In this document: positions 2 to 21,642 of the stretch, one piece after another
Position numbering within the stretch: position 1 is the stretch's first letter
How the letters are laid out: every line of letters begins with the position of its first letter
IMG/VR virus record: IMGVR_UViG_3300020055_000182
Coordinates: 1-21,642 of that record
Length of the DNA: 21,642 bases
Reading direction: 5' to 3' (one strand)
From: a virus
The notes under the pieces: model-generated
What the model was told of the DNA's origin: nothing
The model's database searches: none
Seen by the model: the letters and a program-made list of their open reading frames with translations, nothing else
Translations under genes and position numbers: made by a program

Positions 2-1513
2 GTGGGAGGCGAAGTCAACCTACAAGGCAAACCCTTGGTCCGTTGCTACTACGAAAAGCATACGGATGCTCGCCACGCTAGAGCCGCACATGAGAAAACC
101 TACGAAGGTGATGTTCCTTTCCACTTTCGGTATTGCGTGGATGAGTTGGAAAGTCTTCACGAATACAACTTGCGAAAGTGGTATTGGGATATGGAGTGGC
201 AACAGGGTGGTGAATACGATGGGGCAATTACGGCTATCGTTGCTTTTGACAACTATTCGGAAACCTTTCACCAATTCACTTGGTGCCCAAACTTTGAGTT
301 CAGCGTTGATGTTCAAGAGAATCTCTCAATTGAAGACTACAAGTTGAACTTCTTCTACTTCACAAGTGAAAAGGACATGCTTGAGGCTTTCCTTGACCAC
401 ATGGTTGCAGAAGACCCCGACATGCTCATTGCTTGGTTTGGTTTGAAGTTTGACTTGCCTAAGTTGTTGGAGCGTTGTGCTATCCTTGGGATTGATGCTC
501 GTAGAATCTCTCCGATGGGTCAAGTGAAGGGCTTTGTCAAGTCTTCTAAGGCTGAAAGCGGCTATTACTTCGCCTATGTTGAGCAAGGCTATTCGCCAAT
601 TGAGCAACCCATCGGTGGAAGAATCACTTTGAACCTTGACTTGGCCTTTGAGCGACAATGGAACGACTCACAACGAGGAACACTCCCCTCGCTTTCTCTT
701 GAGTATGTTTCACAGACACTCTTTGGTGAAGGCAAGCACACTGAAACCAAGTTTGAGGACCCAAACGAGTTCTATCGCAGGGCTTGGCTTGAAGACGCAG
801 TAGCCTATTTGCAGTATGCCCTACAAGATGTGGAGTTGCTAAGAAAGATTGACGAAACCAACTTTACAAGTGAAGCCATCCTTTCGCTCCAGCGGTTGCT
901 AGTGGCTCCATTTGATGCTTGCTTCTACGCTTCACACATGGGTTCCATCTACTTCATGCGGAACGCTTCTTGGATTGCTCCTACGGGCAGAAAAGATGTG
1001 GAGCGTGAGGAATACGAAGGGGCGATGATTTACCACCCCGAATCGGAAGGAACCAATGGCTTGCACCTTGGAGTGGCCGCATTTGACTATGCTGGCCTCT
1101 ATCCGTCAATGATGATTGCTCGCAACATCAGTTGGGAAACCAAATCAGCAGAACCTACTGAGTTTGCAGTCAATATCCTTACACCTAGGGACTTCAGCGA
1201 TGTAACCAGTGAGAGGATGCTTTACTACAAGACGGATGAATTGGGCCTGCTTCCAAGAGCAGTTTTAGAACTCAAAGAGTTGCGAAACGACTACAAGCGA
1301 AAGATGCGAGAAGCACGGGAAAACAACACAGGAGAATACCAAAAGTGGTATAACAACCAAATGGCCGTTAAGCGACTTATGGCTTCCTTTTACGGCATCG
1401 TTGCCTTCCAAGGGTTTGGTTGGGCTGATGTTGACTTGGCCGCTAGCATTACCGCTAGTGCGAGAGAAGCAATTAGAACGGCGGCTTTTGTTGCGAGGGA
1501 GATTGATGGTTGA
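2..1513 (+). CDS. polB: Family B DNA polymerase, N-terminal part (exonuclease and palm/fingers; 5' end cut by window)
   Basis: This is the N-terminal part of a replicative DNA polymerase; the reading frame is open to the left edge, so roughly the first 90 residues are missing by comparison with archaeal PolB (inference). In window numbering the 3'-5' proofreading domain shows Exo I (D63-M-E65), Exo II (D151 in FDLPKL) and Exo III (Y272-x3-D276), so proofreading looks intact. Polymerase motif A is DYAGLYPS (D362) and motif B is KRLMASFYG (K457, Y464, G465). Motif B has Ala where archaeal PolBs usually have Asn (KxxxNSxYG). The protein stops at residue 503 (AFVAREIDG), just before where motif C should come; motif C begins the separate gene at 2161. 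The two products must assemble to give an active enzyme, as known for the split PolB of Methanothermobacter. Family assignment is very secure. Confidence 0.95.
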   Translation: MGGEVNLQGKPLVRCYYEKHTDARHARAAHEKTYEGDVPFHFRYCVDELESLHEYNLRKWYWDMEWQQGGEYDGAITAIVAFDNYSETFHQFTWCPNFEFSVDVQENLSIEDYKLNFFYFTSEKDMLEAFLDHMVAEDPDMLIAWFGLKFDLPKLLERCAILGIDARRISPMGQVKGFVKSSKAESGYYFAYVEQGYSPIEQPIGGRITLNLDLAFERQWNDSQRGTLPSLSLEYVSQTLFGEGKHTETKFEDPNEFYRRAWLEDAVAYLQYALQDVELLRKIDETNFTSEAILSLQRLLVAPFDACFYASHMGSIYFMRNASWIAPTGRKDVEREEYEGAMIYHPESEGTNGLHLGVAAFDYAGLYPSMMIARNISWETKSAEPTEFAVNILTPRDFSDVTSERMLYYKTDELGLLPRAVLELKELRNDYKRKMREARENNTGEYQKWYNNQMAVKRLMASFYGIVAFQGFGWADVDLAASITASAREAIRTAAFVAREIDG

Positions 1514-1610
1514 ACATTGCAGAACTTGTCAAACAAGGCGTGGGCCTCTTCATCCGAACTATCGGATTTGCCACTTGTGTTTCATCAACATGCGGAGGCG
1601 AATGAAATGA
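1506..1610 (+). CDS. 34-aa Cys4 zinc-binding microprotein
   Basis: A very short frame (34 codons plus TGA) starts at an ATG overlapping the end of the polB N-terminal gene. It has a purine-rich ribosome-binding sequence (GAGGGAG, 1495-1501) just upstream. The product has two CxxC knuckles (C5/C8 and C22/C25) and a basic tail (NMRRRMK), the minimal pattern of a structural zinc knuckle. Its stop overlaps the next ATG by 4 nt (ATGA), as at other junctions of this operon, which supports it being real. Function is unknown; nucleic-acid or protein binding is a guess from the Cys4/basic composition. It is one of four small genes lying between the two halves of PolB. Confidence 0.6.
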   Translation: MVEHCRTCQTRRGPLHPNYRICHLCFINMRRRMK

Positions 1611-1756
1611 AGAACTACATATGCCCCGATTGCTACGAAAAGCAGTTCAAGGTCTATTTTGCGACTGAGAACAAAGTCGGGCTAAACAAGTTAAGGCTCG
1701 TTTGTGACAACAAGAAGTGCAATTTCAAATCAAAGACGATTGATGTAATGAGGTGA
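1607..1756 (+). CDS. 49-aa zinc-ribbon protein
   Basis: The start chosen is the ATG at 1607, which overlaps the stop of the upstream microgene in an ATGA arrangement; the frame is open further upstream, but that part would overlap the other Cys4 gene. The product has CPDC near the N-terminus and CDNKKC near the C-terminus (C-x2-C...C-x4-C), separated by about 26 residues rich in beta-forming residues. This is a typical stand-alone zinc ribbon. Function is unknown. Its place in the replication operon suggests a nucleic-acid-associated role (inference). It could be an accessory subunit of the split polymerase, but nothing in the sequence proves that. Confidence 0.6.
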   Translation: MKNYICPDCYEKQFKVYFATENKVGLNKLRLVCDNKKCNFKSKTIDVMR

Positions 1757-1761
1757 ATGTG

Positions 1762-1917
1762 ATGTTTAACTTAGACGAATTAATTGAAGTGCAAAAGGAA
1801 ACACAAGGCACACTCTCTGAGTTGCTAGAGAATGTAAAAAGAAGCAACAAAATCCTGATGATGGTAAATGTGGTGAACATTGCTACCATTATCACTCTAC
1901 TAGTGGTGATACTATGA
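1762..1917 (+). CDS. 51-aa tail-anchored membrane microprotein
   Basis: The 51-codon frame begins at an ATG preceded by AGGTGA and overlaps the next gene by 4 nt (ATGA, 1914-1917). Residues 1-30 form a charged amphipathic helix. Residues 31-51 (from KILMMVN to the C-terminus LLVVIL) form one hydrophobic segment ending at the last residue. This is a C-terminally anchored topology with the charged helix probably in the cytoplasm. The helix contains QGTLSELLENVK, resembling QATLANLIEGMK in the adjacent downstream protein, so the two may pair as coiled coils (inference). No known family is recognised. A membrane protein inside a replication operon is unexpected. Confidence 0.6.
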   Translation: MFNLDELIEVQKETQGTLSELLENVKRSNKILMMVNVVNIATIITLLVVIL

Positions 1918-2159
1918 CAGATGAAAATATGAAAGAAGTAACGGAAACTATTGGGTTGATGCAAGCAACGCTTGCTAATCTAATTGAAGGAATGAAGAAT
2001 ATGGAACGAAGGCTAGAAGGTATAGGTCAAGACTTAGATAACCTTTACGCCGAAGACAAGGACATTGGCCTTGTTCGTGGTGCAGTGAGGGAACTCCAAG
2101 ATGAAGTTGCTAAGATGGCCAACCAGCCAGTTGGAATGATGTTTGTGAGAAGGGTTTGA
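1914..2159 (+). CDS. 81-aa coiled-coil protein
   Basis: A small, soluble, strongly helical protein with heptad-like spacing of Leu/Ile/Met over residues 5-75; it contains GLMQATLANLIEGMKNMERR and LVRGAVRELQDEVAKM. There are no cysteines and no membrane segment. The start ATG overlaps the upstream stop (ATGA), and the stop lies 1 nt before the ATG of the PolB C-terminal gene. The first half resembles the cytoplasmic helix of the 51-aa membrane protein just upstream (Q-x-T-L-x2-L-x-E-x2-K), suggesting the two arose by duplication or pair with each other. Function is unknown. Confidence 0.7.
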   Translation: MTDENMKEVTETIGLMQATLANLIEGMKNMERRLEGIGQDLDNLYAEDKDIGLVRGAVRELQDEVAKMANQPVGMMFVRRV

Positions 2160-2160
2160 C

Positions 2161-3069
2161 ATGAAGGTAGTTTACGGACATACTGATTCAATCTATGTTC
2201 AAATTGACGACATTGAAAAGGCCAAAGAAATAGCAGAAGTGATTCAAAATGAAGTTAGAAAGAAGTTCCCGAATGTTCTCGGACTTGAACAACATCCCGT
2301 TGTCTTGGAGTTTGAAAAGTATTATTCGGCGTTGGGCGTCGGCATTACGAAGAACCGAAACGCAGGAATGATTACTTGGGAAGACGGCGTGTATTTGGAT
2401 AGGCCGAAGTTTACCTTGACCGGGTTTACTGCAAAGCGGGTAAGTGAAACAAAACTCGCCAAACAAGTTCAAACTGATGCGCTCAAAATGTGGGTTTCTC
2501 AAAAGACCCAGCGTGAAATCAACAAGCACCTCTACGATACCTATCGTGATGTGTTGCGGGGCAACATCCCCCTTGATGCTATCATCAAGAGAAGCCGTCT
2601 GCGTGAAAATAGATTCACTCTGCAATGTCGCTTCAAACACAAGCACCATCTCAAGGATTTGATTGGTGACAAGAACATTTGTGGCCACCGAAAAAACAAG
2701 AACTCCCTGCCTTGTCAAGAGCCTGTGACTGCCTTTCAAACTGTTGAAGGTAAGCGACCTAGCATTGCCGCAGGAATTGCCGGTATTGTGCATTGTTGGG
2801 CCAACAAGGGTATGGAGTTTGATGACTCCTACCTTCACTTGAAAGTAAAGACAGACGAATACTACACCCACCCCTTAACCAAGGAAGTGAGAAATGTGGA
2901 ATATGTAGCAGGAACAACTTATGCAGACTTTGACGAATATACTCCCGATTGGGAGCATTATGCAGAGCAGGTCGTCAAGAAAGCAGAGCCTATTTACCGA
3001 GCAATGGGCTGGAACATTTCGGGCATTAGAAACGGCTCGGTTCAAATGAGTTTAACGGAGTGGTTTTGA
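2161..3069 (+). CDS. polB: Family B DNA polymerase, C-terminal part (motif C, thumb, PIP motif)
   Basis: The protein opens directly with polymerase motif C as KVVYGHTDSIYV. Family B normally has YGDTDS, so the first Asp is His here (H7), while the second Asp (D9), the essential metal ligand, is kept. The following palm/thumb region includes LTGFTAKRVSETKLAK (87-102), matching the conserved segment after motif C. Thumb-like sequence continues through residues 200-290. Residues about 150-190 hold a Cys/His-rich segment (C156, H160, H162, H163, C174, H176, C185) that looks like an inserted zinc-binding element. The last eight residues, QMSLTEWF, fit the PCNA-interacting (PIP) consensus QxxLxxWF. 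Together with the gene at 2-1513 this makes one complete polymerase. Confidence 0.93.
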   Translation: MKVVYGHTDSIYVQIDDIEKAKEIAEVIQNEVRKKFPNVLGLEQHPVVLEFEKYYSALGVGITKNRNAGMITWEDGVYLDRPKFTLTGFTAKRVSETKLAKQVQTDALKMWVSQKTQREINKHLYDTYRDVLRGNIPLDAIIKRSRLRENRFTLQCRFKHKHHLKDLIGDKNICGHRKNKNSLPCQEPVTAFQTVEGKRPSIAAGIAGIVHCWANKGMEFDDSYLHLKVKTDEYYTHPLTKEVRNVEYVAGTTYADFDEYTPDWEHYAEQVVKKAEPIYRAMGWNISGIRNGSVQMSLTEWF

Positions 3070-6394: not shown

Positions 6395-7863
6395 ATTACG
6401 AAGAATTTGAATTGAACGATGAAGACTGGTTGGTAGCAGAAGAGAATGCCCAACCTTTAACTGAAAGCCTACCAAAGATTGTAGCGGAATTCCAAGCAGA
6501 TGCCGCCAAGGTTTCTCACTTCAATGAGATTCCAGCCGCTATGTCTTTCTTTACCATTCTTGGGCAAATCTGCAAAGAGTTTGTGACCATTCCTACTGGT
6601 AGAAACAGAGAAGACTCCCGCATCCACTTTTGTTGGATTCAAACTTCGGGAACTGGCAAATCCACACTTTGGAACTTTGTTGGCCCTGTGGCCAAGAGAA
6701 CCTTTGAGCGAATCAACAACGGTGGTGTTCATCCCCCATTGACTTCTCCAATTGATAATCATCAAATGCCCCGCCGGTTTGACATTTTCGGCGTTACCGA
6801 CTATACCGACTCAGTGCTTCTTGGGACTTACAATGAAGACATTGACGAGGAAGGCAACAAGTCACTAGAGCGAGTTGCTGGCCTCCTTGAAGGTAGCGGG
6901 CTTGCCCATTGGGACGAGTTTGAATACTCCGGCATCTTCAAGCAAAGCCAGCACAAAGAGAACTCAATCGTTTATCTCAATACTTTGATGAACACTCTTG
7001 CTGGTGAATCTTGGGTTATCTCCAAAGCATTGACAAAGTTCGGCGGGGAAATCATGCACTGCTATTCGGAACGCTCTGTTCTAGCAATGACCTATCCACC
7101 AAATAACCTCAACAATGTGATTGCTGAGAAAGGTGTTCTTCAAAGAATGGTCATGTATGTGGTTGATGTTCCCGATGCAGTTCAGCACCAAATGCGTCTT
7201 GAGCAACTGTCAAAGGTTGGAACCATTGAAGAAATCAATCAGCCCATTGACAAGTATGTGAATGGACTCATGGAGATTTACAACATGCTCAAGGAACACC
7301 ACGAAGAGATGGGCGGTGACTCTACCAAAACCATTCGCTTTGCCGAAGGATTCAATGCTAACTTGATTCTTGAATACAAGAACATGAGAGCAGAACTGTC
7401 CAAGTGCCGAAAGGAAGTGGCTGAGTTGGCTTCCAATTTTACCACTCGTTTGATGGTGAACCTTACGAAGATGAGCGTTCTCGTTTGCATTGCTCGCAGT
7501 CTTAACATTAAGGACAAAAATGCCCGATTTTTGGTAACTGGTCAGCATGTCCGTGAAGCCGCTCTTATCATGAGGAAGTGTTATATCAGTCTGGTTTCTT
7601 GGCTTGAACAGAGCCTAAAGGTTCGCAAGGCGAGCATCGCTGAAAAATCGCTTGAACCCCAATTCATGTCAATTTACAAAGAATCGGAAAAGGACGAAGA
7701 GGGCTTCATTCACAAGAGCAAATTCCTAAATGGCGTTATTGAGAAAACGGGCAAATCAAAGGCGCAGATTTACAGACACTTCAAATCTATTGAACACAAG
7801 TTTGATGAGAAAGCACACGGGAAATACAAGTATATCCGACTGATTGGAGATGATGTAGAATGA
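6391..7863 (+). CDS. DUF3987-like P-loop ATPase, possible replicative helicase, with C-terminal winged helix
   Basis: A 490-aa protein with a clear Walker A (TSGTGKST, residues 85-92, K90) and a Walker B-like segment LAHWDEFE (D175, E176). A downstream strand SVLAMTYPP (about 229-237) and GVLQRM (R252) sit where sensor and arginine-finger elements would be expected. Layout and spacing resemble the DUF3987 family, often found beside phage primases. The last 75 residues (ISEKSLEP-like region, then KSKAQIYRHFKSIE) look like a winged-helix DNA-binding domain. Lying between the primase and exonuclease genes, it is the best helicase or loader candidate in this window, but helicase activity is inference. 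The start overlaps the upstream stop by 4 nt (ATGA). Confidence 0.75.
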   Translation: MNYEEFELNDEDWLVAEENAQPLTESLPKIVAEFQADAAKVSHFNEIPAAMSFFTILGQICKEFVTIPTGRNREDSRIHFCWIQTSGTGKSTLWNFVGPVAKRTFERINNGGVHPPLTSPIDNHQMPRRFDIFGVTDYTDSVLLGTYNEDIDEEGNKSLERVAGLLEGSGLAHWDEFEYSGIFKQSQHKENSIVYLNTLMNTLAGESWVISKALTKFGGEIMHCYSERSVLAMTYPPNNLNNVIAEKGVLQRMVMYVVDVPDAVQHQMRLEQLSKVGTIEEINQPIDKYVNGLMEIYNMLKEHHEEMGGDSTKTIRFAEGFNANLILEYKNMRAELSKCRKEVAELASNFTTRLMVNLTKMSVLVCIARSLNIKDKNARFLVTGQHVREAALIMRKCYISLVSWLEQSLKVRKASIAEKSLEPQFMSIYKESEKDEEGFIHKSKFLNGVIEKTGKSKAQIYRHFKSIEHKFDEKAHGKYKYIRLIGDDVE

Positions 7864-8092: not shown

Positions 8093-8686
8093 ATGTCAGT
8101 TCTAGCCTTGGATATTGAAACCAAGAACATGTCCCACGACATTGGCGGTTTTGGTAACACGCACATGTTCCAAGTTTCTACTGTCGCTACTTGGGACGGC
8201 AATACTGGAACAGTCTATGTTGATGAGCCAGTTAGCGAGTTTGCAAAGTCGGGCCACATCATCAAATCGCTTGGTGAGTTGAAGTATGACTTGGACGAGC
8301 ATTTCCAAAAGGGAGGTGTTCTTTTGGGCCACAACTTGGCGGCATTTGACTTGCCCGTTCTTCGTGACTCAATGGACATTTACTGCATTCACAAATACTT
8401 GAGCGAAGAGAAATACATTGACACTTCCAAGGTTTTGCTGAAAGAACATGGTGAGCGGTTTCAACTCAAGAACCTTGTCAAATGCACCATGCAGGATTCT
8501 AAACTCATGGATAGTGCAGATGCGCCCCGCCTTTGGAAGATGGGTCGCTTTGACGAAGTGGTTGAGTATTGCATGAAAGATACTCAGTTGGTCTACGACC
8601 TGTGGGATTACGGTAAGCAGAATGGAATCGTCAAAGCGTTTTCCATCAACAATGAAGAGTTTGTGGATTTGGAGGTGAATTGGTAA
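8093..8686 (+). CDS. DnaQ-like DEDDy 3'-5' exonuclease
   Basis: This 197-aa stand-alone exonuclease has all DEDDy motifs: Exo I LALDIETK (D7, E9), Exo II LLGHNLAAFDLPVL (N81, D86) and Exo III YCMKDTQ (Y159-x3-D163). The length is that of a bare RNase H-fold exonuclease without a polymerase. It degrades single-stranded 3' ends (family knowledge). As PolB already has its own intact proofreading domain, this enzyme may serve in repair, primer or RNA trimming, or end processing (inference). The GGTGA at 8079-8083 is the likely ribosome-binding site, and it lies within a short hairpin just before the ATG. It overlaps the next gene by one base (TAATG). Confidence 0.92.
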   Translation: MSVLALDIETKNMSHDIGGFGNTHMFQVSTVATWDGNTGTVYVDEPVSEFAKSGHIIKSLGELKYDLDEHFQKGGVLLGHNLAAFDLPVLRDSMDIYCIHKYLSEEKYIDTSKVLLKEHGERFQLKNLVKCTMQDSKLMDSADAPRLWKMGRFDEVVEYCMKDTQLVYDLWDYGKQNGIVKAFSINNEEFVDLEVNW

Positions 8687-8838
8687 TGACTGGTTGGGAA
8701 TGGTTTTGGTTGATTGTTTTCCTTGTCGTGCTGATGCTTCTCTTCTTTGCCGCATTCGGTGGTTCAAACATCACGGAAGAATCCGTGGAAGAATACATGA
8801 ACCGTCTTATGGGCAAAGATGAGGCTAGGCAGAAATGA
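8686..8838 (+). CDS. 50-aa membrane microprotein
   Basis: A 50-codon frame starts in TAATG at the exonuclease stop, with a GGAGGTGA sequence upstream (about 8671-8678). Residues 3-25 (from GWEWFWLIVFLV to FAAFGG) are one hydrophobic, tryptophan-rich membrane segment. A 25-residue charged tail follows (EESVEEYMNRLMGKDEARQK). It overlaps the next gene by 4 nt (ATGA). No known family. With the genes at 1762 and 4196 it makes three single-TM microproteins in this operon; a small membrane-acting lysis or superinfection protein is also possible, but unproven. Confidence 0.65.
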   Translation: MTGWEWFWLIVFLVVLMLLFFAAFGGSNITEESVEEYMNRLMGKDEARQK

Positions 8839-8993
8839 CATTGAAACAATCGTGTGCATACTGCAAAGCAAAAACCCTTGCAAAAAGGTTGCAAGGATTC
8901 TACATTGGCTCAACAGAGCGAGTCAAACTTTGGGAGTGTAGAAACTGCGGAGGCATTTGGTCTTCAAAGACCCTTACGGGGGGAGAGTCTTAG
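8835..8993 (+). CDS. 52-aa zinc-ribbon protein, last gene of the replication operon
   Basis: The ATG overlaps the upstream stop (ATGA). The product has two CxxC knuckles (CAYC near residue 7 and CRNC near residue 35) about 25 residues apart, joined by a basic and beta-prone stretch, and ends in a Gly/Ser-rich tail. This is a small zinc ribbon, probably nucleic-acid binding (inference). Its last codons form the left arm of the downstream terminator hairpin, and its TAG stop lies in the loop, so translation to the end of this gene would overlap termination. Confidence 0.65.
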   Translation: MTLKQSCAYCKAKTLAKRLQGFYIGSTERVKLWECRNCGGIWSSKTLTGGES

Positions 8994-9017
8994 GATTCTC
9001 CCCCCAAGATTTTTTTT
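8978..9017 (+). terminator. Intrinsic-type terminator of the replication operon
   Basis: A 9-bp perfect GC-rich stem pairs GGGGGGAGA (8978-8986) with TCTCCCCCC (8997-9005). It extends by three more pairs including one G-T wobble (8987-8989 with 8994-8996), leaving the loop TTAG. A run of eight T residues follows at 9010-9017, and another five T shortly after. There is no T-run on the opposite strand next to the stem, so it should act on plus-strand transcripts only. It sits exactly where the two convergent operons meet. Archaeal termination needs mainly the T-tract; the strong hairpin is extra. Confidence 0.85.
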
Positions 9018-9051: not shown

Positions 9052-9921
9052 TCAAAGTGGCTGGCTTTGCATTTCTTGCATCTTTCTGGCGTAGTTGACG
9101 GGCTTAACGAGGTCTTTTGGTAAAACTCCACAATTGAAACCCCATGCAATGAGATGTTTAGCAAGCCTTTCTGTTGAAATGTTGGCCCCACTATTCTCGG
9201 TAAACGGGCAACCGCCTAAGCCGCCGACGCTCGCATCAAACTGCTTAACTCCTGCAAATAGGCCAGCCTTGACCAACTCAAACGCTTTGTCTTCGTCGCC
9301 TTTGTGGTGAAGATGCAACGCACTTCTCATTTTCTCTTCCTTTGCGATTTTAGCAAATTGTTTGACCTGTTTGGCAGTTCCGCATCCTACTGTATCGGCA
9401 AAAACCACAGTGTTGCCGAACATCTTGGCGTCCCTAACACAGTTTCTAATTACTTCTTCGCTGAATGTCCCCGAATACGGAGAACCGAAAGCCATAGAGA
9501 TGTAAACTCTCACATCTTTCTTTTGTGATTTCATGAATGTTTTATACATGAGAATAATCTCATTTCTTGTCTTTCCCATGTTTTTGAGATTAAATGTTTC
9601 GCATGGCGAAAAGACGATATTGATTTTTTTCGCACCCATCTTCATGGCCCTCTCATAGCCCCGCTGATTCATCACAAGAACGCCCCCTCTTTGATACACA
9701 TGCTCCGCATCGGCCATTTGTGGAACTAGCCTTGGGTGGGCCATGCTTGTTTCTTCTACATGGCTTAACCCGGCCTCGTAGAGCGAGGTGATGAAGTCAC
9801 GCTTCATTTCAGTAGGGATGAAGGTAGGGAGTGATTGCAGGCCGTCCCTTGGGCTGACCTCATAGATTGAAACTCTCACGCACTGACATTTAAGTGTAGA
9901 AAATAAACCTTGCGGAATCAC
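9052..9921 (-). CDS. HMG-CoA lyase-like enzyme (DRE-TIM metallolyase), auxiliary metabolic gene
   Basis: A 289-aa complete enzyme closely following 3-hydroxy-3-methylglutaryl-CoA lyase, which cleaves HMG-CoA to acetoacetate and acetyl-CoA. Visible active-site residues, by comparison with the human enzyme from memory: EVSPRDGLQ (R25, D26), VEETS (E56), the nearly identical VPQMAD stretch, ADTVGCGT (D176), the metal-binding HxH (H203, H205), the HMGL-specific loop GGLGGCPF (C238), and N247 in the SGANISTE segment. A difference is HLHHKGDE where the family has HCHDTYGQ. The start is a GTG overlapping the fibre gene stop (GTGA); a second GTG at 9879 would give 275 aa and a more usual N-terminus. 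It is the last gene of the tail operon, so probably expressed late. Related DRE-TIM enzymes are less likely because of the CPF loop. Confidence 0.88.
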   Translation of the reverse strand: MIPQGLFSTLKCQCVRVSIYEVSPRDGLQSLPTFIPTEMKRDFITSLYEAGLSHVEETSMAHPRLVPQMADAEHVYQRGGVLVMNQRGYERAMKMGAKKINIVFSPCETFNLKNMGKTRNEIILMYKTFMKSQKKDVRVYISMAFGSPYSGTFSEEVIRNCVRDAKMFGNTVVFADTVGCGTAKQVKQFAKIAKEEKMRSALHLHHKGDEDKAFELVKAGLFAGVKQFDASVGGLGGCPFTENSGANISTERLAKHLIAWGFNCGVLPKDLVKPVNYARKMQEMQSQPL

Positions 9922-12470
9922 TTCAATCTCACGAATTCAAGAAATGACACTCTCGTTGTTCCGAGGGTGTTTCCTCGGTATTGGAAATTGGCTTGGTTAA
10001 AATAATACTCAATGCTTTCAATCGTCGTTCCACCTTCAACGGTGAATTGAACAGGGGTGGTAATGGCTGATTGTGCGCTACTCACATATTCTTGTTCACG
10101 ATGATAGAAGAATTGCCCATCTTGTGCTACGGCGTTAGCGTTTCCTCTCACAATCCACAGGCCATTTCCTGTTGAGTTAGCGGTGCTGATAAGCCAAAGA
10201 TGAATAATAACGAGATACATTTCATCCGAAGAAGAACCAATGGTAATTTGTCCAGCGGTAGGGTCCGGTGATGGTGGGGCTATGGTGAGAATCCCATCGG
10301 GGTCATCCACATTCCAACGAGATGTATCGCCAAAATCAATTGTAATCCAATTATTAGCCGTTTGAGCAGAATCGGGAGCGATACAATCCAATTTAGCAAC
10401 ACTACCCGATGCGCTAGCACCATCATCAACATTGAGCATTGTTCGCACTTCAGCAGGAGTTAATTCCTCACTATCACCACTACCAGCATCATTACGACCA
10501 AGAATGGTGTTGGTTGCCACATTAGAAACTACATCAACCGTTCCTCCTGCAACATCAACAAATGACAATTGACCTGCACCATCTGTTTCTAAAACTTGGC
10601 CGTTAGTGCCATCAGCAGTAGGCCAATTTAGCCCATCCAAAACAATTTTACCCGTCCCATCAGGAGTAATTGTAATATCGCCATTAGATGCTGAAACAAT
10701 GTCTTTTCCGTTCACATCTAAGTTTCCACCTAATTGTGGCGTAGTATCTTCAACAACATTTAAGATACCTGTATCTGTATCGGTATCTGTATCGGTATCA
10801 AGAATATACCATCCGACAGGAACAGAAGCCACATCATTGACATATTGAAGCGTAATGCCTTCCATTGTTTCTAATGTGATTTGTGTTGGGCCTGTTCTCC
10901 TTTGGTCTGTAGCGGCTCCCGACCCATCAACAACGCTTGTAGTGTTAATGATTGATTGGGTAGCGGCAATATTCTTGATGTGAATAATTTGCCCATTTGT
11001 TCCATCAGCCAAATTCAATGTAGAACTAATGTAATAAACGCTATCGTCAAAACCCGGCGAGGCTAAATCCGAAATAGAAGTAGCAGGGTCAATAGGAATA
11101 ATCTCAGTTTCACCGTTGTTTTTGAAACCATCAACAGTCACATGGTTGGTAGTTGTTCGCCCACGGTCTGTAACTGCCTGTAATGTATCTGCTTCTGTTG
11201 AAGTAATAGTAAAGTTGGGATAAGTCCCTGTAACTGCGGTAATGCCTGCTCCGGTCAAACTTACCGTTTGGTCGGGTGCTGAATTGACGACTTCAAGAGT
11301 TGAGCCAGCACCACCATCGTTAAGCGTAATTCCTGTTCCAGCAGTAATTTGCCGAGCGGTGGGAATAGAGGAAGCATTGGTAGTTACAAATCCATCGTTG
11401 GTTACATCGTTTGAACGACCCGAACCTTGAACAAGAATCTTAGCCGTTCCCGAAGAACCAGCAGTAAAAGTGGATAGGTGAACAATTCTTCCAATGTTTT
11501 GAATTGCATCTGTGTCGGCAGTTGGGCGAGTATTGGTTAGTTTCCCAACATTTGGTGAAAGGTAGATAATGTCACCTTCGGAGTAAGAACCAGCATCAAA
11601 CAAAGTCGCAGAAATATCTCCAGTTAAACCTTGAACAACGACTTTACCGTTTCCACTAGCAGTAATGGTATCATAGACTAGGCCAATAGCAGGATATTTG
11701 CTTGTGGCAATAGTAGCATCAGCCAGTTGAACAGTAATCCTTCCCGAAGCGTAATTTGTTGGATAAACTGGCGCACCAGCAGTTAATCCTGCACCGCTAC
11801 CATCAGTAATGCTTTCAACAACAGTAATCTCGGAATACCCGTTAGGAACCTCAAAATTCCCATTTTGCACTTCCAAGTCGCCAGTCGTAACTCTTACCTT
11901 TCCTGTTCCCGAAGGAGTAAAGTCCATGTTTGTGTTTGAAGAACCCGTGAAAGTAACATCTGTTCCATCACTTGTAATTGACATTTCTTCGCTATATGTC
12001 CCGCTTCCTTCCCCAATGCTCAAACTGTTCTTGGTCTTGTTCACGGTAAGATACTGAACGCTTAGTGGGTTTGCACCGGTATGTGTAAGCACGGCAATAA
12101 TTGTATCACCAGCAGTGTATTCTGCAACTTTATCTGCCGCAGTAGGGTTTCGCAGAACAACCGTAGGAGAAGCCCCACTTGGAGCCACAAGAAGATGGTA
12201 GCCGTTGGTGTAGGAAGAACTCAAAGTCAACGAATCTCCGGTAACATCAACCAATTCCCCATCTCTGAAAATCTTACCATCTGCTACTGTAAGAGCAGTA
12301 GCGTCTGTTCCAGTAATGTCAAATCCGCTGATAGCATAGTTCTGCCCAAGACCATCAGATAGGGCTTTGATTAATCCGGTATGCGGAAAGTCCACACCAT
12401 CTTCAATTTGATTCGGTGTTCCAGTCGTGCTTTGTCCGTAGAAATTTGGGTTACTTACCATATCACTCAA
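9918..12470 (-). CDS. 850-aa tail fibre / receptor-binding-type protein
   Basis: A long, Gly/Thr/Ser/Asp-rich protein of beta-repeat type with almost no Cys. An N-terminal region (about 1-150, with FPHTGLIKALSDG and VADGKIFRDGELVDV) resembles virion-attachment ends of tail proteins. The shaft has recurring short motifs such as TPSGTGK/TPDGTGK and ADGTNGQ, common in marine phage fibres. A DT repeat lies near residues 557-566. The last 110 residues are richer in aromatics (for example YLVIIHLWL and QANFQYRG) and may form a globular receptor-binding tip; a C1q/TNF-like sandwich is possible but unproven. It lies downstream of the hub and small tail genes, the usual fibre position. Confidence 0.75.
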   Translation of the reverse strand: MSDMVSNPNFYGQSTTGTPNQIEDGVDFPHTGLIKALSDGLGQNYAISGFDITGTDATALTVADGKIFRDGELVDVTGDSLTLSSSYTNGYHLLVAPSGASPTVVLRNPTAADKVAEYTAGDTIIAVLTHTGANPLSVQYLTVNKTKNSLSIGEGSGTYSEEMSITSDGTDVTFTGSSNTNMDFTPSGTGKVRVTTGDLEVQNGNFEVPNGYSEITVVESITDGSGAGLTAGAPVYPTNYASGRITVQLADATIATSKYPAIGLVYDTITASGNGKVVVQGLTGDISATLFDAGSYSEGDIIYLSPNVGKLTNTRPTADTDAIQNIGRIVHLSTFTAGSSGTAKILVQGSGRSNDVTNDGFVTTNASSIPTARQITAGTGITLNDGGAGSTLEVVNSAPDQTVSLTGAGITAVTGTYPNFTITSTEADTLQAVTDRGRTTTNHVTVDGFKNNGETEIIPIDPATSISDLASPGFDDSVYYISSTLNLADGTNGQIIHIKNIAATQSIINTTSVVDGSGAATDQRRTGPTQITLETMEGITLQYVNDVASVPVGWYILDTDTDTDTDTGILNVVEDTTPQLGGNLDVNGKDIVSASNGDITITPDGTGKIVLDGLNWPTADGTNGQVLETDGAGQLSFVDVAGGTVDVVSNVATNTILGRNDAGSGDSEELTPAEVRTMLNVDDGASASGSVAKLDCIAPDSAQTANNWITIDFGDTSRWNVDDPDGILTIAPPSPDPTAGQITIGSSSDEMYLVIIHLWLISTANSTGNGLWIVRGNANAVAQDGQFFYHREQEYVSSAQSAITTPVQFTVEGGTTIESIEYYFNQANFQYRGNTLGTTRVSFLEFVRLK
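10771..10800 (-). repeat. Hexamer/12-mer tandem repeat encoding a DT run in the fibre
   Basis: Five consecutive hexamers of the form GTATCN on the plus strand, alternating GTATCT and GTATCG, so the true period is 12 bp (2.5 copies). On the coding minus strand they give the alternating Asp-Thr run in the fibre shaft. All units are multiples of three, so copy-number slippage would change shaft length without breaking the frame. Confidence 0.85.
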
Positions 12471-20711: not shown

Positions 20712-21642
20712 TCACGCTCCCAAAGTCCTAGAAGAAGTGTTTCTGTTGATTCTGCCGTTAATCATCTGCCCAATCTTATCAGCGATTCTTCTCAGTTCAG
20801 CATCGGAAGTATCTCTAGCGTTAATGGTGATGTTGAAAGTATTGCCTCCACCTGCGGCCATTCTCTTTGATTCTGCATTGGTGTGAACTCTTGAGCCTCT
20901 TGGAAGAGAAACCAATTCGGGGCCACGCTCTCCAACGACTTGCATTGGGGTGCTGACCATTCCGCCATTTGCATGGAAACCGAACAACCCCATAAGTTTC
21001 TTAGCCACATAAAACCCAATAGCGGCGGCAATCATAGCCGCCCATGCGCCCGAAGCAACAAAAAGCACATATCCAGCAATAAGAGCAATGGTGACGGCGA
21101 TGCGGTTCACCCAAGACATTGCTGAACTGAAATAATCCCCAATGAAATTAACAAACCGCTGGCCAGTTTCTTTGAGCAAAACACCGAGCAAAACCAATCC
21201 AGCAGTAATTGCAGTAATGGCGAGGCCAGCAACAAAGAGAAGCAATCCTCCAGCCACCTTAAGCAAGCCATCAATAAGAGTCATCAAATCACCATCACCG
21301 AAGAAAGCACTCCAAATATCCTTGAGTCCATCCCATACAATCATAAGGCCAGCCATAGCAACCATACCAACGGCTTTGATGGCTTCCCAAGTGGCCTTGA
21401 GCGCATCCATAATTTGTGGGCCGAATGCCTTGAATATCATGTAGAATAAAACAACAAAGGCCATTGTCTTGAAAATGACGGCTGATACTAAAATAGCCGC
21501 CTTAACCACATGCTTCTTGATGAGTTGGAATATCTTACCAAAGTCGGTATTGTTTAACACATCAATAAATTGTTTTGCGGCTTTTTTGATTCCCCCGCCA
21601 GCAGGTTCTTGTCTTCGCCGTATTCCAGTAATCATTCCTCCG
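20712..21642 (-). CDS. Tail tape measure protein, C-terminal part (cut by window edge)
   Basis: The frame is open to the right edge, so the N-terminus is missing; an ATG at 21635 has GGAGG only 1 nt upstream, too close to be a normal site, and is probably internal. About 300 residues are visible. Several hydrophobic segments (about 47-72, 90-107, 126-156 and 183-212 from that ATG) are followed by the characteristic tape-measure C-terminus: HANGGMV, VVGERGPELVSLPRGSRV and then NTFNITINARDTSD. This motif set is typical of siphovirus and myovirus tape-measure proteins, which set tail length and exit through the tail tip on infection. Hydrophobic segments are a normal feature of such proteins. 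Confidence 0.88.
   Translation of the reverse strand, partial: GGMITGIRRRQEPAGGGIKKAAKQFIDVLNNTDFGKIFQLIKKHVVKAAILVSAVIFKTMAFVVLFYMIFKAFGPQIMDALKATWEAIKAVGMVAMAGLMIVWDGLKDIWSAFFGDGDLMTLIDGLLKVAGGLLLFVAGLAITAITAGLVLLGVLLKETGQRFVNFIGDYFSSAMSWVNRIAVTIALIAGYVLFVASGAWAAMIAAAIGFYVAKKLMGLFGFHANGGMVSTPMQVVGERGPELVSLPRGSRVHTNAESKRMAAGGGNTFNITINARDTSDAELRRIADKIGQMINGRINRNTSSRTLGA

Follow-up and report, generated by a model that had tools for sequence, protein, structure and literature searches.

An HMG-CoA lyase-family gene with a conserved active site and a promoter-like element in a probable magrovirus-type virus of marine archaea

HMG-CoA lyase is an enzyme of leucine and ketone metabolism. It is named in the ICTV profile of the viral family Aoguangviridae, whose example virus YSH_150918 carries the N- and C-terminal parts of a DNA polymerase and an HMG-CoA lyase (PMC10768690). 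Likewise, a survey of magroviruses named HMG-CoA lyase as an auxiliary gene and described a sporadic spread of auxiliary genes in these viruses (Xu et al. 2023, PMC10160649). Both reports stop at annotation of the gene and describe no residues, structure, promoter, or microprotein, and likeness to them is judged here by description. The view of a preliminary description of this DNA, that the gene is not a commonly described viral auxiliary gene, is overtaken by these 2023 reports on Aoguangviridae and other magroviruses; the lyase gene is not new to viruses, and the locus analyzed here adds one more case.

The window, i.e., the whole stretch of 21,642 nucleotides that was analyzed (IMG/VR record IMGVR_UViG_3300020055_000182), contains tail genes on the minus strand that face a replication module on the plus strand, with the lyase gene between the two (Table 1). 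Small genes lie between the two pieces of the polymerase. As in Aoguangviridae and other magroviruses, the lyase is present as an auxiliary metabolic gene together with a split family B polymerase and opposed replication and structural modules, and the gene layout, the two-piece polymerase, and the lyase agree with the published description of Aoguangviridae (PMC10768690). Judged by these sequence features, the window probably belongs to a magrovirus-type tailed virus, the probable hosts of which are abundant marine archaea. No PCNA was detected by Pfam in 32 related viral records, which carries little weight because viral clamps diverge. Additionally, a strong terminator-like hairpin (12 pairs, 8 of them GC, followed by a T run) was observed at 8978-9005 on the plus strand, between the converging gene runs.

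Table 1. Features of the window, with positions counted from its first nucleotide
Feature	Position	Strand	Remarks
Family B DNA polymerase, two pieces	2..3069 (2-1513, 2161-3069)	plus	both pieces match PF00136; the first also matches PF03104
Exonuclease-like gene (convergent replication module)	8093..8686	plus	RNase_H_2, E 1e-5; PHROG 403 (DNA polymerase exonuclease subunit), E 2e-10
HMG-CoA lyase-family gene	9052..9879	minus	probable start GTG 9879, 275 aa; Pfam, NCBIfam, PDB search, AlphaFold2, alignment, selection
In-frame extension, probably untranslated	9880..9921	minus	reaches GTG 9921; unconserved as protein; one-base shift relative to L003; holds the promoter-like element
TATA-like promoter element GCAAGGTTTATTTTCTACACTTAA	9890..9913	minus	TTTA begins 28 nt before GTG 9879
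Preceding gene, probable tail fiber (850 aa)	9918..12470	minus	position after tail genes
Tail tape-measure-like protein, C-terminal part	20712..21635	minus	PHROG 991 and 19914, E 8e-8 and 2e-7; marks the tail module

The location of the lyase gene in a tail operon, as first proposed, finds support: the tape-measure match upstream and the gene order in relatives speak for it, but the 850-residue fiber protein itself matched no Pfam or PHROG family. Proteins in the fiber position of relatives include one similar to a PHROG tail-fiber protein (L063 to the L017 fiber). Three arrangements of the lyase gene were found in related viruses, namely at the end of the tail genes beside the fiber gene and facing the exonuclease gene (as in the window), within the tail-tip gene run, and in the region upstream of the large terminase gene.

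The lyase protein matched Pfam PF00682 (E 1e-18) and the NCBIfam hydroxymethylglutaryl-CoA lyase model NF004283 (E 8e-59), the latter with 199 bits, below the cut-off of 246 bits. Lyase-like proteins from four Bacteroidota genomes likewise fall under this cut-off; therefore, it is not defining, and the miss is no argument for another function. In a sequence search of solved proteins, HMG-CoA lyases made up six of the seven matched sequences (E 8e-35 to 9e-30), followed by homocitrate synthase (E 5e-4), and the best relatives were the human, Bacillus, Acinetobacter, Brucella, and Pseudomonas HMG-CoA lyases. An AlphaFold2 model based on 60 aligned relatives had a mean pLDDT of 95 and a pTM of 0.92. 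On structure comparison, the top ranks were taken by all eight entries for solved lyases, among them the HMG-CoA-bound human enzyme (Z 34.4-36.0 over 262-269 residues at 1.9-2.1 Å), other DRE-TIM enzymes came next at Z 27.4 and lower, and Foldseek likewise ranked HMG-CoA lyases first. The isopropylmalate, homocitrate, and citramalate synthases of the DRE-TIM type share the barrel fold and the type of metal site, but they score about Z 22-26, compared with 34-36 for the lyases. These family matches, nearest solved proteins, and structural ranking bear out the original assignment to the HMG-CoA lyase family, and the claim that the protein is full length is supported as well.

The closest cellular counterparts are the lyases of human (HMGCL, 2cw6), B. 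subtilis (1ydo), P. aeruginosa (2ftp), and Brucella (1ydn), with which the window protein shares the fold (Z 34-36) and the catalytic and metal residues. Unlike these enzymes, it has His in place of the Asp after the HxH motif, and it is only about 30-34% identical to them over the structural alignment. The Bacteroidota lyase-like proteins resemble it in having HLH without a following Asp and in their NCBIfam scores, but they are 25-30% identical and form a separate clade on a long branch. Among predicted viral structures, the only close match was the HMGL-like protein of Klosneuvirus (A0A1V0SKU2), which is also virus-encoded and has the same fold (TM-score 0.89); however, Klosneuvirus is a giant virus of protists with an unrelated genome, and its protein is 26% identical.

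The preliminary description listed R25, D26, E56, D176, H203, H205, C238, and N247 in a 289-residue protein, which are R11, D12, E42, D162, H189, H191, C224, and N233 in the 275-residue form and correspond to human R41, D42, E72, D204, H233, H235, C266, and N275. Every named catalytic and metal residue is present, so the active site is intact as stated there. When 64 viral relatives were aligned with cellular lyases, these eight residues were found in essentially all of the viral sequences. E7 (human E37) is conserved as well, and E237 (human E279) occurs in the window and in 52 of the 64 relatives. Residues corresponding to human E37, R41, D42, E72, Y167, D204, C266, and N275 were present in all sequences except one truncated at its start.

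The match of the two histidines with human H233 and H235 depends on the alignment. In the ungapped HMMER profile alignment the register shifts by two residues, placing viral H191 opposite human H233 and a lysine opposite H235. In the gapped alignment with the Bacteroidota lyases, a common HLH motif places H189 and H191 opposite H233 and H235, and both histidines lie within the predicted strand 185-192 of the model. Since the Bacteroidota motif is in register and both residues share this strand, we infer from alignment and model that H189 and H191 are the metal histidines, and the pairing of a lysine with H235 was set aside. Members of the main viral group have His after HxH where many lyases have Asp, a residue that the Bacteroidota proteins lack too. 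In the predicted enzyme, a divalent metal would be held by D12, H189, H191, and N233, and C224 would act as the catalytic cysteine. The conservation of catalytic residues across a large and diverse viral clade argues against a lyase protein that has lost its enzymatic role and now acts, beside the tail genes, as a part of the virion or of its assembly. Such a role would suit the two arrangements among or beside tail genes, but the third places the gene away from them, and we consider it very improbable.

The lyase reading frame ends with a stop codon at 9052-9054 and has two candidate starts, GTG 9921 (289 aa) and GTG 9879 (275 aa). GTG 9921 overlaps the stop codon of the fiber gene as GTGA, and from this overlap the lyase had been described as translationally coupled to the fiber gene. 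In the nearest relative (L003), the region ahead of GTG 9879 is conserved as DNA with a one-base offset from the window, and the 14 additional N-terminal residues show no conservation at the protein level. Furthermore, the N-termini of solved lyases fall at the GTG 9879 position. Because the extension is unconserved as protein, is frame-shifted relative to L003, and contains a TATA-like element, GTG 9879 is favored, and comparison with relatives makes it probably the true start, with the extension untranslated. A start at GTG 9921 with coupling to the fiber gene is hence improbable. The GTGA overlap is truly in the sequence, and in 39 of 69 relatives the lyase does begin at an overlap of 4 nt, but there the partner is a microprotein gene and not the fiber gene; a conserved promoter-like element between the fiber and lyase genes further contradicts the coupling.

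In the comparison of the window with L003, the stretch before GTG 9879 contains GTTTATTTT(C/A)TACACTTA, and the exact core match of the element lies at 9895-9907. In other viruses, the consensus AAGTTTAATTTCTACACCGC precedes the first start codon of the lyase cassette by 28-30 nt. Its position and sequence suggest that the element is an archaeal TATA box of a leaderless transcript. A coding interpretation of the element (KFNFYTAL) was rejected, as the spacing is 28, 29, or 30 nt by group and L013 has an in-frame stop.

Among the loci scanned, the promoter-like element AAGTTTAWTTTYTRCACYRC was almost confined to the lyase cassette. In 24 loci, 19 sites scored at least 22.8, and 17 of these were cassette sites. 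L014 has a second copy, at 7018, ahead of a 75-codon frame, and the site in L089 lies ahead of a 56-codon frame, both with scores of at least 22.8; five other matches scored at most 16 and had no frame after them. The exact version of the motif occurred 17 times in IMG/VR, 13 times on contigs of our lyase lists, and the other four occurrences had neither lyase nor microprotein downstream.

The lyase gene is widespread and strongly conserved, and dozens of viral contigs of marine origin carry it. From IMG/VR, 22 and 79 lyase loci (overlapping sets) with 36-100% identity were recovered in two scans, while a scan of bacterial and archaeal genomes gave relatives of 27-37% identity only; the latter relied on short viral-type motifs, by which a close relative would probably be visible and distant ones would not. 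In three trees, the viral sequences formed one clade (support 98; 99/96; 97/95) with a long stem within the HMG-CoA lyases, and the LeuA/homocitrate-type outgroup lay outside the lyase clade. This clade is virus-only among the sequences available, which did not include host lyases; the archaeal lyases compared came from two genes on haloarchaeal plasmids, where they neighbor CoA transferases. Low dN/dS values (about 0.04-0.11 in close pairs) reveal purifying selection and indicate that the lyase protein is in use. The virus-only clade and this selection sustain the earlier view of a settled viral gene.

The best tree sided the viral clade with the human, Pseudomonas, and Brucella lyases (94/96), whereas an alternative tree, in which it was joined to the CoA-transferase-linked homologues, was not rejected by the AU test (p 0.156). 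The phylogeny thus does not fix the substrate. Because members linked to CoA transferases and dehydratases probably use other acyl-CoAs and the joining tree stands unrejected, the main doubt about the lyase concerns its substrate. A protein of the same fold acting on another beta-hydroxyacyl-CoA, e.g., a citramalyl- or methylmalyl-type CoA, would be in line with homologues found beside CoA transferases and isopropylmalate-dehydratase-like genes, including in haloarchaea, and with the Acinetobacter relative solved with CoA and 3-methylmalate. We regard this as unlikely, since all residues named for HMG-CoA lyase are kept and the best tree points to the human, Pseudomonas, and Brucella enzymes, the latter not being decisive.

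Of 20 records that encode a close relative of the replication ATPase of the window, only three contained an HMG-CoA lyase of this kind, two of the three belonging to a deeper viral branch. This indicates that the lyase is an accessory gene, and its patchy presence agrees with the sporadic spread of auxiliary genes described by Xu et al. (PMC10160649). Two viral records of 94 kb and 96 kb (L218 and L219) carry the deeper lyase branch with the cellular SCAFGCPFEG motif and a replication ATPase of the window type. Matches in a phage collection were set aside: two were 'Acinetobacter phage' records of 328-379 kb, of which the one examined looks like bacterial DNA, and the third was an unverified fecal scaffold without annotation. 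The record examined (CAKLQH020000001, 328 kb, 'Acinetobacter phage MD-2021a') has a regulator, CoA transferase, transporter, and catalase around the match, and these bacterial-type genes make it look at least partly bacterial.

Taken together, the gene probably encodes a catalytically intact HMG-CoA lyase of a magrovirus-type virus and probably has an archaeal-type promoter of its own, giving a leaderless mRNA that begins at GTG 9879. Sequence and model point to HMG-CoA cleavage as the likeliest reaction, by which the enzyme would split HMG-CoA into acetyl-CoA and acetoacetate. Counted against this interpretation are the NCBIfam score of 199 bits, the AU result, the His in place of Asp after HxH, and the lack of HMG-CoA reductase and thiolase genes in the 32 related viral records, many of which are fragments. 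Poseidoniales have been described as degraders of proteins and fatty acids and as having a full archaeal lipid pathway, which makes both leucine breakdown and a loss of HMG-CoA possible. In a host living on proteins and fatty acids, the lyase would bring leucine breakdown to completion and make carbon and energy available during infection, and the loss of HMG-CoA from the mevalonate pathway would be a side effect or a second benefit. Which of these effects matters to the virus is speculative; catabolism of leucine or acetyl-CoA is no less likely than a block of host lipid synthesis and is weighed higher because the gain of acetyl-CoA needs no further assumption.

The same reaction might instead serve late in infection, with the lyase draining HMG-CoA from the mevalonate pathway and so limiting or redirecting isoprenoid ether-lipid synthesis during virion assembly and lysis. 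The full lipid pathway of Poseidoniales, the location of the gene amid late (tail) genes, seen in two of three arrangements, and a single-TM microprotein paired with the lyase in many relatives, which would fit a membrane-related role, are consistent with this possibility. However, no virus-encoded partner of the lipid pathway was found in the 32 related records, and with a conserved promoter of its own the lyase need not be expressed late together with the tail genes, so we consider a lipid-directed role rather unlikely. An intact and strongly selected lyase would mean that these viruses intervene where amino-acid catabolism and isoprenoid lipid synthesis branch in their archaeal hosts.

In 39 of 69 viral loci (after rough de-duplication), the first gene after the element region is not the lyase gene but encodes an undescribed microprotein of about 50-58 residues, and its stop codon overlaps the lyase start by 4 nt. 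Carriers include L006, L008, L009, L011, L013, L035 (51 aa), and L041. The microprotein has one hydrophobic segment (19-residue Kyte-Doolittle maximum of 1.85-2.96 in ten examples) and a C-terminus of the pattern CxxG(M/L)R(R/K), and it had no match better than E 0.1 in Pfam or PHROGs. Its pooled pN/pS of 0.15 reveals purifying selection and indicates a real gene. The element was found in 39 of the 69 loci, and 35 had both element and microprotein; in microprotein-bearing loci the element stands 28-30 nt before the microprotein start codon. A motif-limited scan detected the microprotein in 27 contigs, 26 of them with the lyase in the locus.

In the window, L003, L054, L058, and L067, the element precedes the lyase with no microprotein there, and no homologue of the microprotein was found elsewhere in the window. 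Viruses of marine archaea may carry a dedicated metabolic cassette of promoter, single-TM microprotein, and 4-nt-overlapping lyase at varied genome positions, in which the microprotein might recruit the lyase to the host membrane or regulate it there. The window would hold a reduced version with promoter and lyase; this proposal is tentative. The promoter-microprotein-lyase cassette is the new part, no description of it having been found in the open-access literature, and it offers a concrete testable unit of promoter, microprotein, and enzyme. At 8686-8838 on its plus strand, across from the lyase in the replication run, the window encodes another small protein of 50 residues that also has a single hydrophobic segment (MTGWEWFWLIVFLVVLMLLFFAAFGG...) but is dissimilar to the microprotein by HMM. 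In addition, L238, at the end of a viral contig of 50.7 kb, has the microprotein with no lyase after it, indicating that the microprotein can exist apart from the lyase.
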